The notes beneath the pieces were generated by a model. It was not told the DNA's origin. It worked only from the letters and a program-made list of their open reading frames with translations, and ran no database searches. Below are positions 31,137-37,679 of a stretch of 52,210 nt of DNA, piece after piece. Both the position numbers and the translations under genes were made by a program. Position 1 is the first letter of the stretch; the number at the start of each line of letters is the position of its first letter. Origin of the DNA: Planctomycetaceae bacterium (GTDB lineage: Bacteria; Planctomycetota; Planctomycetia; Planctomycetales; Planctomycetaceae); NCBI GenBank assembly GCA_020426325.1, contig JAGQQG010000041.1, positions 1 to 52,210 on the forward strand, written 5' to 3'.

Positions 31137-31309
31137 TTTCGTCTCAGGTCAGTCCCATTAAACCGTGATGAGTTTTGGAACGACTAGAACTCGAAATCGG
31201 CAGGCTGATTGCGAGACAATCATCGAGTGAGTAGGTTATTAGAAACGATGGTTCCGATAGGAGCCGATGTTACTGTTAACTTTCTCTGAAGATCCTCGTG
31301 GGGGTTGTG

Positions 31310-33139
31310 ATGGTTCAACGCATCGCCGTGGTGAGCCGATTCCCTTGGCTGGCATTCACGATCGTTCTGTTGTGGGCAGCGACAGGGAATACTGAAGAAA
31401 AACTCCGTACATGGTTTGATGTGACGGGGAAGCATTCGATGAAAGCCACCTATGTGTCGCATGACGACGAAAAGGTGACACTCAGGGACCCCGAAGGGAA
31501 GGTCTTTGAAATTGAACTGAAACAGCTCAGTAAACCAGACCGGGGTTATCTCGAGAGGATTGCGAAGAGTGACTCCGATGAGTCGGCTGAAGGTTCACCT
31601 CTTCCCGATCAGCCACTGGTGATTGGACAGTCTAAAGAGCGGGGAGTGGCCCTGGATGTTCATCCGTCGGAACCGGAATGGACTTTTCAGCGGAAACCGA
31701 ATGCGGGACTAGAGTTTTCGCCGCGAGAATTCTCCATTCCCCTGGAAGAGTTCGGTGAGCGGGCAACCGAGTTTGTGATCACACCCTCCGGACAGTTTGC
31801 AGCACTGACCGCGAGTTACCCTTCCAGTCAGACACGGGTCTCAATACTGGACCTGTCAAAGAAGAAGGTCGTCGCCTCTTCGTCAGCAGCAGGCGATTAC
31901 TTGGCGGTCGCTGTGAGTGACGACGGCCAACGAGTCGCGATTCGATCGGACGATTTTCGGGACAAAAGACAGATCGGCGTCTTTCGTGTGAGCGGAAAAA
32001 AGCTGAAGCCGGAAGGCAATTTCATGCCATTTCCCGATCTGACCGATACGGCGATTCTTTGGGCTGGATTCGTCGGCGACGATCAGCTGGCCATTCTCTG
32101 TGAGAATGCGGGAATCACCGTCTGGAATCTTTCGAACTATCAGGAAGACTGTTATTTCGAGTTAGAGGGAGACTCTGCCGCGACGCGAAACGCCGATGGC
32201 AGTGTGATCGCCTTTGCCGACAAGGAGAAGGTTGGCCTGTTCCAGATGGCTGACCGCAGCTTTTCGGCAGTGCAACCGGTCCCAAATGCTTTTTGGACGA
32301 AGCACTTGGCATTCAGTCCTTCTGAAGAGCGATTGGTTGGTTTCGGGGTCAATCGACTCGTCACCTGGGAGACAGACACGGGGAAAGTGATCAGCGACAT
32401 CCCCGAATTGAAATTGCCGGGATCCGCGGGAGATTGTGTGCAGGAGAATTTCGTCTTGATCAACAATCGATATCTCGTCGACTTGGAGAATCAGCTCAAA
32501 CTCTGGTCTTATAACGGACTTCACAGAACGGCTTCCGCAGGCGGAGTGACATTCTTTTTGATCCCGCGTAGAGCCGGACGCAATTCGACACTGGCGATCG
32601 CGCCGGTCTCGCTGCCGGACCCGGAAGCCACCACAGCACTCGATGAGGCACTTACCCAGCCGGATTTATTTTTACTGAAACCGGGAGGAACCGTCCAACT
32701 GGACGTTTCAAAAGTCCCTGACGCAGAGCGTGAAAAAGTTCGCGAATTTCTCATCGCGCGGCTTCAGGAAAACCGCATCTCCGTGTCCGATGATGCCGTC
32801 TCAACGCTCGTTGCATCGATCAGCAATCCACAACCAGTGACAGCCATCTATTACTCCCGGAAGGATCGGGTGCCTCATACATACAACTTCAAAGTCCTGA
32901 ATTCGAAGGTCGAACTTATTCATGATGGTCAAGTTGTCTGGAGCCAGCAATCAAATAATCAGCCCTCTTCCGTCTATGCCAAAGAAGGAGAATCGATCTC
33001 GGAAAAACTCAGTGAAGCAACCCAGAAACCAAACCTCTTCTTCTTCGAACATGCCCATCTCCCCAAGCTGATCCAGAAGAAACCCGAATCGGAGGGACAG
33101 AACCTCCAGTGGACTTTCGGAGAATCAACCGTCAAGTGA
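31310..33139 (+). CDS. Secreted SHD1-domain propeller-like protein, paralogue 1
   Basis: 609 residues from the ATG at 31310; an in-frame GTG twelve bases upstream lies within the leader. A signal peptide covers residues 1-27. Residues 31-86 (LRTWFDVTGKHSMKATYVS, then VTLRDPEGKVFEIELKQLSK) match the SLA1 homology domain 1 often found in planctomycete secreted proteins. A region of WD40-like blades follows from about 150 to 400. The C-terminal 190 residues, opening QPDLFLLKPGGTVQLDVSKVP, form a separate alpha/beta domain also found in the next gene. No catalytic motif is seen. It is the first of three plus-strand genes for exported proteins ending with the caspase-like protein. Confidence 0.82.
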   Translation: MVQRIAVVSRFPWLAFTIVLLWAATGNTEEKLRTWFDVTGKHSMKATYVSHDDEKVTLRDPEGKVFEIELKQLSKPDRGYLERIAKSDSDESAEGSPLPDQPLVIGQSKERGVALDVHPSEPEWTFQRKPNAGLEFSPREFSIPLEEFGERATEFVITPSGQFAALTASYPSSQTRVSILDLSKKKVVASSSAAGDYLAVAVSDDGQRVAIRSDDFRDKRQIGVFRVSGKKLKPEGNFMPFPDLTDTAILWAGFVGDDQLAILCENAGITVWNLSNYQEDCYFELEGDSAATRNADGSVIAFADKEKVGLFQMADRSFSAVQPVPNAFWTKHLAFSPSEERLVGFGVNRLVTWETDTGKVISDIPELKLPGSAGDCVQENFVLINNRYLVDLENQLKLWSYNGLHRTASAGGVTFFLIPRRAGRNSTLAIAPVSLPDPEATTALDEALTQPDLFLLKPGGTVQLDVSKVPDAEREKVREFLIARLQENRISVSDDAVSTLVASISNPQPVTAIYYSRKDRVPHTYNFKVLNSKVELIHDGQVVWSQQSNNQPSSVYAKEGESISEKLSEATQKPNLFFFEHAHLPKLIQKKPESEGQNLQWTFGESTVK

Positions 33140-33267
33140 GGAGGAAGGGTTCGGTCGGTGCAGTTCAGGTTGGCATCGAGGCGAATTCGTATCGACAAGC
33201 GAAGATCCAAAGGCAGTACGGTTTGAATTCAGGAACATCGCGCTCAGGTGACGGACGGAGAGGAATC

Positions 33268-35067
33268 ATGATTTCGGCTCAACAGAAAAATCAGAAACAG
33301 CCAATGATGGCGCAACGGCGACGATCACATCTCTGCTTGCTCCTGATGATCCTGCTGGTCTTCTCAGAAGGTCGACGATGTGTGGCACAGACGAATCCTT
33401 TCAAACCAACCACAGAAAGTCCGTTTCGCAAAAAGGCCGATAGCCCTTTCACTCCCGTCCCCTCCGACTCCAACGATTCCTCTGCGGATCAGCAAGACGG
33501 AGCTCCCCAATCAAACCGTCCCTCTCGTTCAGCCAAGAAGTTCCGGCACGGGAAGTACGTCCCGGTGAAGTCCCCCGAAGGCGGTTGGTCCTATACCCCC
33601 GGTCAACTGACGCCGCTCGAATACGAGCCTGAACGTGTTGATGTCGCTGAGATCGACTTTCCTGAACGGATTAAACAATTTTGCGTCAACCGTCCTGGAA
33701 CGCTCGGAGCGATCACTGCTCAACGGCCTCAAGGCAATACGCAGATCAAAGTGATGGATTTCCTGGAAGGGGAAGTTGTCGCCTCAATTGTGACCCCGAA
33801 AGAACTTCTCGTTCTGGATGTCGATGACTCGGGGCAGCGACTGGTCCTGGTGTCCGATAAATATGGCTTCGGGGAAAAGCGGGAAATCGGTACGTTCCTC
33901 GTCAACGACTCCGTGCTGGTCGAGGAGTCGATGTTCATTCCCTTCCCGGATTTACGAGTCCCGGACCTGGACGTCGTTTCAGCTGACTTCGTTGGTGATC
34001 ACCATTTGCTGATTGTGAGTTTCTCAGGAAGAGTTTCTTTGTGGGATCTGGAGAAGCTTCGTGAGGAATGTGGCTTTGATCTGAACAGCAGGGGGTCTAA
34101 GATCCAGGTCGTCTCCGGTCCAGACCCGGATGTGGTTGCTTTCGCAGACAAGGAACAGTTTGGTCTGTTTGATATCCGTCGTCAGGAATTTCTCGGCGTT
34201 TCTCCAATTCCTGAAGGGATGACATCTCCCCAAATCGCTGTGAGTCCTTCCGGAACTCGTCTGGTTCTCGCAGAGAGCGAGAAGGCGATCGTGATCGATG
34301 CGATCAATGGACAGATCCAGGAAGAGATTCCGCTCCCCGCCGGTCCGTTGACCCGAGTCGAGTTTGCGAACGACGACTTTCTACTTGTTTCCAGTCAAAG
34401 CCTGATCTCAATTTCAGATCGCATGTTGCTTTGGACGTATATCGGCGCCGAGAACTCGGTCTCTGTCCATGGCACAACGTTTTTCATGATGGGTGGATCA
34501 TCAGCCAAGGGGACAGTCATCCCCAAGACACTTCCCGATCCCCAGGCCGTCGACGCGTTGGAGACCGCACACTCGCAGCCGGACCTGTTTGTTGTCCGCC
34601 CCGGTGATTCGGTGCAGATTGATGTTTCAAAGGTGCCGTCACAATTCCGTCCGCAAGTTCAGGCTGCTCTTGAACAAGCACTTCATGACCGGGAATTAAG
34701 TGTCGCAGACAAATCAGACGTCGTCATGACTGCCAGTATCACCGGTCCGGAACAAAAAGTCGTTGAATACAGCCAGTTCGGGCGAGGAGGCGGTGCCTCT
34801 GGATATGTTGTTTCGGAATTTGTCTCGACACTCGAGATTCTCTGGAAGGGACAGGTGGCCTGGCGAAAAGAGCGAACAAATGCTCCGGGAAGTATCACTC
34901 CCAAGAAGGGGCAGTCGATTCAAGACATCCTCCGCGAGAAGACTTCACAGCCGAATCTGAGGCTGTTTGCACAGGCTGGCTTTCCTCGCTACGTGAGAAA
35001 GCCGGAGGGAAAATCTGCAGAGTCGAAGGAATCACTGGGGCAGTCCAACATCGAAGGCTTGTTCTAG
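33268..35067 (+). CDS. Secreted propeller-like protein, paralogue 2 (no SHD1)
   Basis: 599 residues from the ATG at 33268, which has GGAGAGG just upstream; an earlier in-frame ATG at 33109 lies inside the preceding gene. A long signal sequence with a hydrophobic core (LCLLLMILLVFSEG) is followed by a Pro/Ser-rich, disordered linker (about 45-95) where paralogue 1 has SHD1. The blades and C-terminal domain match paralogue 1 clearly: MFIPFPDL vs NFMPFPDL, VVAFADKEQFGLF vs VIAFADKEKVGLF, QPDLFVVRPGDSVQIDVSKVP vs QPDLFLLKPGGTVQLDVSKVP. This is a tandem duplication with N-terminal divergence. Function unknown. Confidence 0.82.
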   Translation: MISAQQKNQKQPMMAQRRRSHLCLLLMILLVFSEGRRCVAQTNPFKPTTESPFRKKADSPFTPVPSDSNDSSADQQDGAPQSNRPSRSAKKFRHGKYVPVKSPEGGWSYTPGQLTPLEYEPERVDVAEIDFPERIKQFCVNRPGTLGAITAQRPQGNTQIKVMDFLEGEVVASIVTPKELLVLDVDDSGQRLVLVSDKYGFGEKREIGTFLVNDSVLVEESMFIPFPDLRVPDLDVVSADFVGDHHLLIVSFSGRVSLWDLEKLREECGFDLNSRGSKIQVVSGPDPDVVAFADKEQFGLFDIRRQEFLGVSPIPEGMTSPQIAVSPSGTRLVLAESEKAIVIDAINGQIQEEIPLPAGPLTRVEFANDDFLLVSSQSLISISDRMLLWTYIGAENSVSVHGTTFFMMGGSSAKGTVIPKTLPDPQAVDALETAHSQPDLFVVRPGDSVQIDVSKVPSQFRPQVQAALEQALHDRELSVADKSDVVMTASITGPEQKVVEYSQFGRGGGASGYVVSEFVSTLEILWKGQVAWRKERTNAPGSITPKKGQSIQDILREKTSQPNLRLFAQAGFPRYVRKPEGKSAESKESLGQSNIEGLF

Positions 35068-35501
35068 ACAGCACTTCTCACGGTCGGACTTCTCACTGAA
35101 GTGGAAGAGGGAACACGCCCACTCCAACAACAGAAAGTTCAGAGAGAGTGAAGCGGGGTACGTGGTCGTGGACCGTTTCTGGTGAGCTCCCAGCGGGGAA
35201 GAACGTGGTCTATCATCCAACCTCGATCGCGCGATCCGAACGCACTATTGCTTAGCGCACATCGCTGCGGTGATACTGCAACCACCATGAATGGCCGGGG
35301 CTGGACTGACCAACGGGAAGGAGGCCCCGAAGGTTGCGGCAACGACACCGGGACTTCGCGACAGGTCCGGCCATCCAGCCGAGTTTGAGATCGCTCCCTC
35401 CCGTCACAGCCACACAATCTAGACATCTCTTCTGAATTGTCGGAAGATCGTTGTATCTGTCCCGTTGATCAAAAAAGTGCACTCAGCCGGGGATTTGAGT
35501 C
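35068..35501. other. Intergenic gap with a dispersed hairpin
   Basis: 434 bases between paralogue 2 and the caspase-like gene. No open frame here is convincing. The clear element is the hairpin repeat at 35294-35330, which has a relative at 52161-52189. The gap probably also contains the promoter of the caspase-like gene, so the three exported-protein genes need not be one transcript. Confidence 0.55.
35294..35330. repeat. Dispersed hairpin repeat, family B copy 1
   Basis: The sequence GCCGGGGCTGGA, then CCAACGGGAAG, then GGCCCC is shared with bases 52161-52189; this copy has two short insertions (CTGA and GAG). CGGGGC at 35296-35301 pairs with GCCCCG at 35324-35329. Both copies are intergenic. 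Confidence 0.6.
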
Positions 35502-37679
35502 ATGCTCTCACGATGGGCCTTCATGATTGCGGCGGTTTTGTCATGCGCTGCCCAGATTTGCGCGGATGACAGCAGCAAGGGAACCTCCAATACGACAGCC
35601 GTCTTTCGACCGGTTGCTGAGCAGGCTCCGAGCAACAATGCTGCGATGTTTGTCGGCATCAATGAATTCTCGAACGATCCGAACATTCCGCCACTTCGTT
35701 TTGCGGTCCATGATGCCGTCGAACTGGCACATCTGTTCGTTGTGCGACTGAAACTGATTCCTGCGGCCAACTGTCATGTGGCCCTCTCCGGCACTCCGTT
35801 TGTCGATTCGGTCAATCAGCATCTAACCGAACTGAAACGACTGGGGGTGCACGTCATTGAGGCTGACAAAGCGGACGTGTTGAAGGCTTTGCTGCTCGTG
35901 CGCAGATCAGCGAAAGATGAGTCAAACCTGCTGATTATCAGCATCTCCTCGCATGGCTTCGATGACGGGACTGTCCCGTATGTCATGCCGACAGACGGGC
36001 TCCGCGACTTTCTGGCAGATACGGCTATCCGGCTGCAGTCGATCGAGGAGCAGATGCAATTGTCCCATGCCGGACACCGGCTTTTTCTCGTTGACGCCTG
36101 TCAGGAGAAGGTCTCTTTCGCTCCGGAGAAAGCGATCGCAACGAAGACCTCTTCAGCCATGAACGCCACATTTGCAGAGGCACTGAAGCAGCCGACCGGA
36201 CAGGCGAAACTGACTTCGTGCGATGTCGGCGAATTCAGCTATGAGTTTGGAGGCCTGCGCGGCTGCGGGCACGGTGTGTTCACAGCGACCCTGCTGGATG
36301 CTCTCGATGGAGGCGCCCCCGCAGACGAAGAGGGTCTCATCCGTATGCGTGCCGTTGCCGACTTCGTGCACAACGGAGTGAACCGTTGGATTGAGGACAT
36401 GAAGCGAACTGGCGGCGGTGACATGAAGCAGTCCCCCGCCTGGTTCGGTCCCAAGTCAGCCGAGGCATTGCCGCTGGCCGTTAAAGCAGGCGATGTCGTG
36501 ACATTAATCACGAATCTGAAGAAGCAGAAACTTCCTGCCGCCTTCAGTAACGATCTGCGTGATCAACTGATTGTCCGTCTGGAAAAGGTCGATGCTTCCA
36601 GTCCAACTGATCGCGAGTTGCTCAACACGACCCGTTCGTTTCTCGATGGCCAACTCGCCGCCCGGCTGTTCGTCCCCTATTTGCGTGATGCGTTGAAGGC
36701 TGAGCCCCCAATGCCAAGACCCGGAAAACCTGCTCTCCTGACTTCCCCTGTTGCCCGTCAACAAAAAGTTCGTGGCACCATCGTCGATACACGCGATCGC
36801 ATTGATCGAAATGGGCGAGTTGGTGTCATTCAGATCCCGGCATTTCGAGTTGAGACTGACCCTCCACAACCGGGATTCGCCTCGACAAGTTCGGAGCGTG
36901 ATGTCGAGATGGTGCTCGCGGATTTCGCGAAAGCAGGTGGAGTCGATGCATTGATCCTCGACTTGCGAGGCAATCACGGAGGATCACTCACCGCGGCGGT
37001 GAACTGTACCGGGCAGTTCGTCGACCAGGGCCCGATAGCTCAGGTCAAGATGCCGGATGGCCGCGTGCAAAGTTACGATGATCCTGATCGCGGGATGTTA
37101 TACTCTGGACCGATGTTAGTCCTTTGCGACAGCGAGACTGCTGCCGAAGCGGAGGTGTTTGCGGGAGCCATCAAAGACTGCCGTCGCGGTATCATCGTCG
37201 GTGATTCGAAGACTCGTGGAGCCGGTGTCGGCAAGAGTGACGAACGATACTACCGCGTTAATGGCGATTCGATTCTGGGACGTGGAGTTCATGCAGACGT
37301 GCCGCTTCCTTCCGTTATGCCTTACCAGAGTGTCCTCTCGTCATCGCTGGGGGAATTCGACCGAATCGCTGCGACCCAATTTGTGCAATACAATGTGGTA
37401 TCTGCACCAATCGTAGCCGCATTAAAACGGGCGACTTCCGGTCGTATTGATTCTTCTCAGGACTTCAGGTCGCTGCAAGACTATGTCGATTCCCTCAGCG
37501 AATTACCCGGTCGTGCGTCACTCACAATCACAGGTCAAGATCTACTCAACAGTTTCAAACTTGCACGAGGTGATCTGGCGATTGAGGGCGACGAGGCCCC
37601 GTTATTGTTCCCAGCACATTGGTACAACGATGAAATCCTCAACATTGCGCTGGACTACGTCCATGCGTTGCAACAGTGA
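35502..37679 (+). CDS. Exported caspase-like protease fused to a degenerate S41 domain
   Basis: 725 residues with a signal peptide (1-21). Residues 46-325 form a peptidase C14 (caspase/metacaspase) domain: AMFVGINEF opens it, the catalytic His151 is in ISISSHGFDDG and the catalytic Cys200 in LFLVDACQEK. A helical linker follows. Residues 424-620 match the S41 tail-specific protease fold (VGVIQIPAF, ALILDLRGNHGGS, GPMLVLCDSETAAEAEVFAGAIKD). In a gap-free match to CtpA-type enzymes the catalytic Ser falls at Ala548, and the Lys position near GDSKTRGAG reads Ala574. The S41 part is therefore probably a binding or scaffold domain. There is no PDZ domain. Follows the two secreted paralogues. Confidence 0.85.
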   Translation: MLSRWAFMIAAVLSCAAQICADDSSKGTSNTTAVFRPVAEQAPSNNAAMFVGINEFSNDPNIPPLRFAVHDAVELAHLFVVRLKLIPAANCHVALSGTPFVDSVNQHLTELKRLGVHVIEADKADVLKALLLVRRSAKDESNLLIISISSHGFDDGTVPYVMPTDGLRDFLADTAIRLQSIEEQMQLSHAGHRLFLVDACQEKVSFAPEKAIATKTSSAMNATFAEALKQPTGQAKLTSCDVGEFSYEFGGLRGCGHGVFTATLLDALDGGAPADEEGLIRMRAVADFVHNGVNRWIEDMKRTGGGDMKQSPAWFGPKSAEALPLAVKAGDVVTLITNLKKQKLPAAFSNDLRDQLIVRLEKVDASSPTDRELLNTTRSFLDGQLAARLFVPYLRDALKAEPPMPRPGKPALLTSPVARQQKVRGTIVDTRDRIDRNGRVGVIQIPAFRVETDPPQPGFASTSSERDVEMVLADFAKAGGVDALILDLRGNHGGSLTAAVNCTGQFVDQGPIAQVKMPDGRVQSYDDPDRGMLYSGPMLVLCDSETAAEAEVFAGAIKDCRRGIIVGDSKTRGAGVGKSDERYYRVNGDSILGRGVHADVPLPSVMPYQSVLSSSLGEFDRIAATQFVQYNVVSAPIVAALKRATSGRIDSSQDFRSLQDYVDSLSELPGRASLTITGQDLLNSFKLARGDLAIEGDEAPLLFPAHWYNDEILNIALDYVHALQQ

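Follow-up and report, generated by a model that had tools for sequence, protein, structure and literature searches.

The gene analysed here lies in the middle of a Planctomycetaceae contig (the window, 52,210 nucleotides of JAGQQG010000041.1), in which an open reading frame on the forward strand at 35502-37679, stop codon included, codes for a protein of 725 amino acids that fuses a caspase to a protease fold of the S41 family. The protein begins with a signal-peptide-like stretch (residues 1-21, 35502-35564), followed by a caspase (C14-like) domain (residues ~46-320, 35637-36461) supported by an NCBIfam match, the module alignment and profile matches in the PDB. A linker module, helical by its look, extends over residues ~321-400 (36462-36701) and is common to the closest caspase relative found (L070) and to a paralogue in the same genome (L002). 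A junction rich in Pro, Lys and Arg, recognised from the sequence (residues 401-421, 36702-36764), then leads into the pseudo-S41 half, a Tsp/Prc core with a C-terminal helical part (residues 422-725, 36765-37676) identified by Pfam, AF2, Foldseek and tree. Caspase modules and Tsp cores were aligned separately (alignments A2 and A3), a joint alignment (A1) having placed the Tsp cores on the caspase half; the structure of the full-length fusion, predicted without an alignment, had a pLDDT of 32.6, too low to show how the two halves are arranged.

Upstream, and separate from the fusion gene, two tandem genes on the same strand (31298-35067) code for an SHD1/beta-propeller-like and a beta-propeller-like protein, and downstream the fusion gene adjoins MsrA. 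Profile scans of these neighbours (Pfam for all of them, NCBIfam for the two upstream genes) gave no EACC1 match, and the gap at 35067-35502 holds only open reading frames shorter than 100 aa. The beta-propeller-like pair occurs also in another genome of the genus (G001), and was not found at a threshold of 1e-20 in three further ones (G002, G003 and G004). An operon of caspase and beta-propeller genes was considered and dropped, the pair in G001 (contig C290) being without a caspase among the open reading frames listed nearby and the caspase of that genome lying on contig C62.

Within the caspase half, residue 151 is His (35952-35954) and residue 200 is Cys, in a VDACQ motif (36099-36101), so that the His-Cys dyad of a p20-like domain is present, as the earlier note on this DNA had stated. 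Both residues are kept in 17 of the 18 aligned caspase modules, the exception being L068. Profile searches gave mixed results for the domain: Pfam C14 left the caspase half of the fusion (P0001) unreported at E<=1, as it did L052, L062 and L068, while the relatives L002, L070, L051 and L015 passed it; the NCBIfam profile caspase_w_EACC1 matched the fusion with an E-value of 2.6e-12 and 46.7 bits, under its cut-off of 140; PADLOC returned weak generic caspase matches in three of four proteins (best E-value 1.4e-4); and a profile built from the 18 modules matched metacaspases and MALT1 in the PDB. Compared with L070 over 406 codons, the module has a dN/dS of 0.10 at a dS of 1.17, and is thus under strong purifying selection. 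The caspase half is probably an active protease, and its metacaspase and orthocaspase kin would point to cleavage after Arg or Lys. Asp198, which we take to be linked to a preference for a basic P1 residue, is invariant in all 18 modules.

Two other caspase-like genes deserve mention in their own right. L068 (493-2580, minus strand, genome G042) has Tyr instead of the catalytic His and Ser instead of the Cys, and is accordingly a pseudo-caspase, sharing its genome with two intact caspase modules. In the genome of the fusion itself, L077 (1129-2337) is caspase-like with a possible PDZ domain after the caspase domain (E-value 2.7e-4, 21.6 bits against a Pfam cut-off of 27).

The signal peptide claimed in the earlier note finds support by inspection. 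The N-terminus MLSRWAFMIAAVLSCAAQICA|DD looks like one, L070 and L004 read VHA|DE at the corresponding point, and no other run of 19 residues in the whole fusion protein is as hydrophobic as residues 2-20. Judged by this start, the protein is probably exported, and the contrast drawn with the caspases used in phage defence is plausible; export by itself leaves a conflict role possible for the fusion. To our knowledge, exported caspases have apparently been little studied in comparison with the cytoplasmic ones of defence systems.

The C-terminal half matches Pfam Peptidase_S41 with an E-value of 7.7e-27, and its best solved relatives in a PDB search are Prc structures. Against solved chains of Escherichia coli Prc/Tsp, Ala548 (37143-37145) falls on the position of the catalytic Ser, which the S452I mutation has turned into Ile in chain 6iqq, and Ala574 (37221-37223) on that of the Lys, where the aligned 8xud chain likewise shows Ala. 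The Gln position has been lost as well, being occupied by Lys578 (37233-37235), after which 24-27 residues are missing relative to the four Tsps of the genus. The fusion was further aligned by MAFFT to 43 S41 rows of its genus, family and class, among them the intact Tsp of its own genome; they represent 40 genes, three of which each supply two rows. Ser, Lys and Gln are all present in every one of the 43 rows, while the fusion has Ala, Ala and Lys. Both substitutions reported in the earlier note were thus found against Prc chains and S41 rows alike, and its dead serine-protease half lacks all three catalytic residues; as far as the alignments tell, this half is catalytically dead. The fold motif DLRGNHGGS, described there as kept, is so in part: the GG is present, but His492 takes the place of the leading Gly of NGGG, which does not vary among the 29 Tsps of alignment A3.

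The fusion lacks two domains that the parental Tsp has, TSP_NTD and PDZ, the fused S41 half being therefore a fragment of Tsp, and DUF3340 reaches 17 bits against a Pfam cut-off of 28.6, which leaves the core only of the full Tsp/Prc domain set. Tsp/Prc depends largely on its PDZ domain to grip C-terminal peptides. The proposal that the S41 half binds chain ends did not hold up well: with no PDZ domain and with the segment adjoining the Lys site gone, it is weakened to one guess among several, and the substrate pocket itself may be spoiled by the loss of PDZ, the 24-27 missing residues and the replacement of Gly by His492.

Where this half came from is indicated by the genome itself, which codes for a complete Tsp (L003) with TSP_NTD, PDZ, S41 and DUF3340 domains and an intact site (SASASE/GKGTVQ); Tsp was found in four of the five genomes of the genus, the fifth being 72% complete. 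In a careful tree (304 columns, 30 rows), from which 11 shorter CtpA-like S41 rows were excluded, the S41 half clusters with the four Tsps of the genus with a support of 97/99. A quick tree of 41 rows agrees (SH-aLRT 100); three pairs of duplicate S41 rows had been merged before the trees were built. The terminal branch of the S41 half measures 2.75 changes per column (2.35 in the quick tree) against 0, 0.08, 0.08 and 0.10 for the four Tsps, i.e. about 30 times longer, and a branch of such length makes a placement less secure. The clustering supports the view that the S41 half arose as a copy of the Tsp of its own genus and has diverged fast since.

Despite this divergence, the half has not decayed as an idle remnant would. 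At 41% identity to the Tsp of its genome, its 304 aligned codons contain no stop, an outcome reached in 3 of 2000 simulations of neutral drift to the same identity, made under one substitution model and without indels. Counting columns that are uniform among the four genus Tsps and occupied in the fusion, 35 of the 54 invariant in 29 Tsps are kept, 20 of the 25 that are 90-99% conserved, 40 of 79 in the 60-90% class, 11 of 31 in the 30-60% class, and 7 of 24 among the least conserved. Changes at bases where the genus Tsps agree amount to 79/226, 82/263 and 34/54 for codon positions 1, 2 and 3; synonymous sites are saturated in the comparison with the Tsps, which precludes a reliable dN/dS for this half. 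Conserved residues were lost more often inside the two catalytic motifs than elsewhere (10/15 against 14/64, Fisher p 0.0014, the limits of the motifs having been set with knowledge of the active site). Structure prediction, proposed as a check in the earlier note, gave an AF2 model for residues 419-725 (30 rows, pLDDT 84.4, pTM 0.85), which folds as Prc: Prc chains were its best Foldseek matches (E-value 1.1e-20), the first nine having TMq values of 0.70-0.76 and rmsd values of 5.0-7.9. The S41 half has kept its fold under purifying selection and given up its activity.

Searched with the caspase module as a query, family genomes gave a match at 1e-10 in 14 of 170 (its own included), at 24 places; close relatives (1e-18) occur in at least 5 of 397 class genomes and at least 2 of 392 phylum genomes, the own genome included and both sets having been drawn evenly from larger groups and up to four candidates scored per genome, and no relative was found in viral contigs. 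Among the 24 places, L061 and L066 were outside the tail scan, L063 is a piece of L015, and L004 is probably a piece of L002. None of the 19 caspase relatives scanned with Pfam has an S41 tail, five of them (L051, L054, L055, L056 and L058) being cut by contig or locus ends with their tails partly visible. Orthologues with an intact Ser-Lys pair, named in the earlier note as grounds for refutation, did not turn up: no orthologue was found fused to an S41 tail of any kind, and the intact pairs belong to separate S41 proteases.

Instead, relatives carry other domains in this place. The closest one, L070 (G001, MAG HKST-UBA51, of the same genus), is 81% identical over residues 1-407 and has an FGE-type tail, with the reading frame of L070:1992-4010 broken inside the FGE part; likeness at the DNA level between it and the fusion is confined to 35596-36697. 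The in-genome paralogue L002, 62-65% identical, has a DsbD_N tail, L052 and L015 have beta-helix tails, L062 has a TPR tail, and L051 reaches the end of its contig at what looks, by eye, like the beginning of an FGE-like domain. Two modules of the same genome (G042), L052 and L062, are 85.9% identical over 375 positions at a dS of 0.54 and bear beta-helix and TPR tails, respectively, and so constitute a second apparent case of tail exchange. As every readable tail among the close relatives is of another kind, caspase and S41 domain are not conserved as a pair, and the S41 tail would seem to be a replaceable part for binding or sensing rather than a second enzyme. A more distant caspase of the family, L053 (202-2313), has a PQQ-type beta-propeller tail.

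SUMF1/FGE has a pair of Cys residues with a catalytic role. Five caspase relatives with an FGE tail were compared at this pair: the first Cys is missing from all five tails, and three of them have a Cys at the second position. Tails without the first Cys would also fit a binding function, and the FGE piece of L070 finds its closest PDB match in Treponema denticola variable protein 1, a lectin-like binding protein. The DsbD_N tail keeps two cysteines (L002:1079-1585), so that, together with the second Cys of three FGE tails, dead-enzyme tails do not emerge as a general rule. A stretch matching this DsbD_N tail is found in larger genes of all five genus genomes (open frames of 868-971 aa), including a related gene at G000:C28 (L091). 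The broader idea that all tails are copies of proteins of the genus was not upheld in general, the DsbD_N tail having no firm place in its tree, where a clade with the genus rows is not rejected (p-AU 0.61).

Taken as a whole, we favour with moderate confidence the reading that the gene codes for an exported caspase with a swappable tail, which in this instance is a dead Tsp core serving as a binding or sensing module. The signal peptide, caspase domain and linker would form a constant N-terminal module, and the C-terminal tail would be exchangeable; here it would be the protease core of Tsp deprived of Ser, Lys, Gln, the N-terminal domain and PDZ, with the fold retained. Such a tail may bind a partner in the periplasm or outside the cell, either a protein met by the Tsp core or a partner or inhibitor of Tsp itself, and its binding might steer the caspase toward substrates; alternatively, the tail might hold the caspase and then release it, acting as a sensor. 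The caspase, cutting after Arg or Lys, would be the sole active protease of the fusion.

A recent accident could have produced the same architecture, an active caspase having picked up, as a passenger, the remains of a duplicated Tsp that are now being lost. The single occurrence of the fusion among the genomes searched, the missing segment and the loss of PDZ agree with this, as does the long branch, since a half that is of little use and under relaxed constraint could have one too; we nevertheless hold it to be unlikely, as the purifying pattern, the retained fold, 304 codons free of stops at 41% identity and losses centred on the active site speak against a remnant in decay.

Rather unlikely, too, is that the tail is an integrated decoy, in which an attacker targeting Tsp (a phage, a predator or a rival bacterium) would bind the dead copy and thereby switch the caspase on. 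Plant integrated-decoy NLRs are receptors of this kind, fusing a copy of a cellular target to a death-inducing receptor; they are eukaryotic, and their likeness to the fusion is one of analogy. A tail derived from the Tsp of the genus (present in four of five genomes, the fifth 72% complete), devoid of catalysis yet folded, and evolving about 30 times faster, would suit a decoy, and the tail of the paralogue resembles a domain of a larger gene in all five genus genomes. Against this, the attacker is hypothetical, the fast evolution fits relaxed constraint as well, the place of the DsbD_N tail in its tree is unsettled, and the beta-helix, TPR and FGE tails are not evident copies of targets. The more general picture of exported caspases that have captured disabled copies of envelope proteins as bait, in the manner of plant integrated decoys and outside the cytoplasm, is accordingly offered as a speculation of low probability.

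Self-cleavage by the caspase might free the tail as an effector, a mechanism put forward for EACC1 systems (PMC7159879). The layout is the same, a constant N-terminal caspase with a variable C-terminus, and several Lys and Arg residues lie in the linker between the halves; yet the adjacent genes scanned are without an EACC1 match and the start is signal-peptide-like, which makes this account quite improbable. Lacking Ser, Lys and Gln, the tail could be no peptidase effector, and a non-enzymatic role for a freed tail is possible. As for a misjoining of two separate genes in the assembly, we regard it as very improbable, since the fusion, though known from one draft genome only (424 contigs, contamination of 3.3%) and from no other, has a continuous frame across the junction, an S41 half that begins at a domain boundary and is unique and diverged (best match in its own genome 51% over residues 419-576), and a mid-contig position (35.5-37.7 kb of 52.2 kb).

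We return to the exported caspase with a Tsp-derived binding tail, for which the literature offers several points of comparison. No paper treating metacaspase and "Peptidase S41" together was found in the open-access literature searched, subscription papers being mostly outside it, and among the best matches listed there, none concerned a fusion of pseudoprotease, S41 or Tsp with caspase as judged by title or the start of the abstract. With E. coli Tsp/Prc (S41; PDB 5wql, 6iqu) the fusion shares the fold of its C-terminal half, and the parental gene is present in the same genome, but it has lost Ser, Lys, Gln, TSP_NTD and PDZ, as well as 24-27 residues. Prokaryotic caspases and orthocaspases, as portrayed in the main text of PMC3501461, resemble it in combining a His-Cys caspase domain with varied partners, among them FGE fusions, and in including forms with an N-terminal helix that is likely a signal peptide; "S41" is absent from that main text, figures aside. 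The EACC1 and EACC2 conflict systems (PMC7159879, PMC8195603) likewise join a constant caspase to a variable C-terminal domain; EACC1 tails include Clp-like proteases (PMC7159879), and the authors propose roles in sensing or as effectors released by self-cleavage. The main text of PMC7159879 lacks the word "tail-specific" and has "S41" nowhere but in three DOIs. Unlike EACC1 proteins, the fusion looks exported, its tail is a dead S41 domain, and the adjacent genes scanned show no EACC1 match.

A dead protease fold with a function is known from IRBP/RBP3, in which, according to PMC11750400, such a fold without catalytic residues works by binding; its structure 9frx is a far relative of the S41 half (E-value 2.1e-6), but IRBP/RBP3 binds retinoids and fatty acids and has no caspase. 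Variable tails on bacterial caspases are already known, and their roles have been guessed. What the present fusion adds to these systems is a tail in which an enzyme can still be recognised, with the catalytic residues gone and the fold kept, and therefore at least the S41 tail would work by binding: dead but folded, it amounts to a natural knockout, whose candidate partners, i.e. whatever the core of Tsp binds, can be named and tested because the intact parent is present in the same cell.
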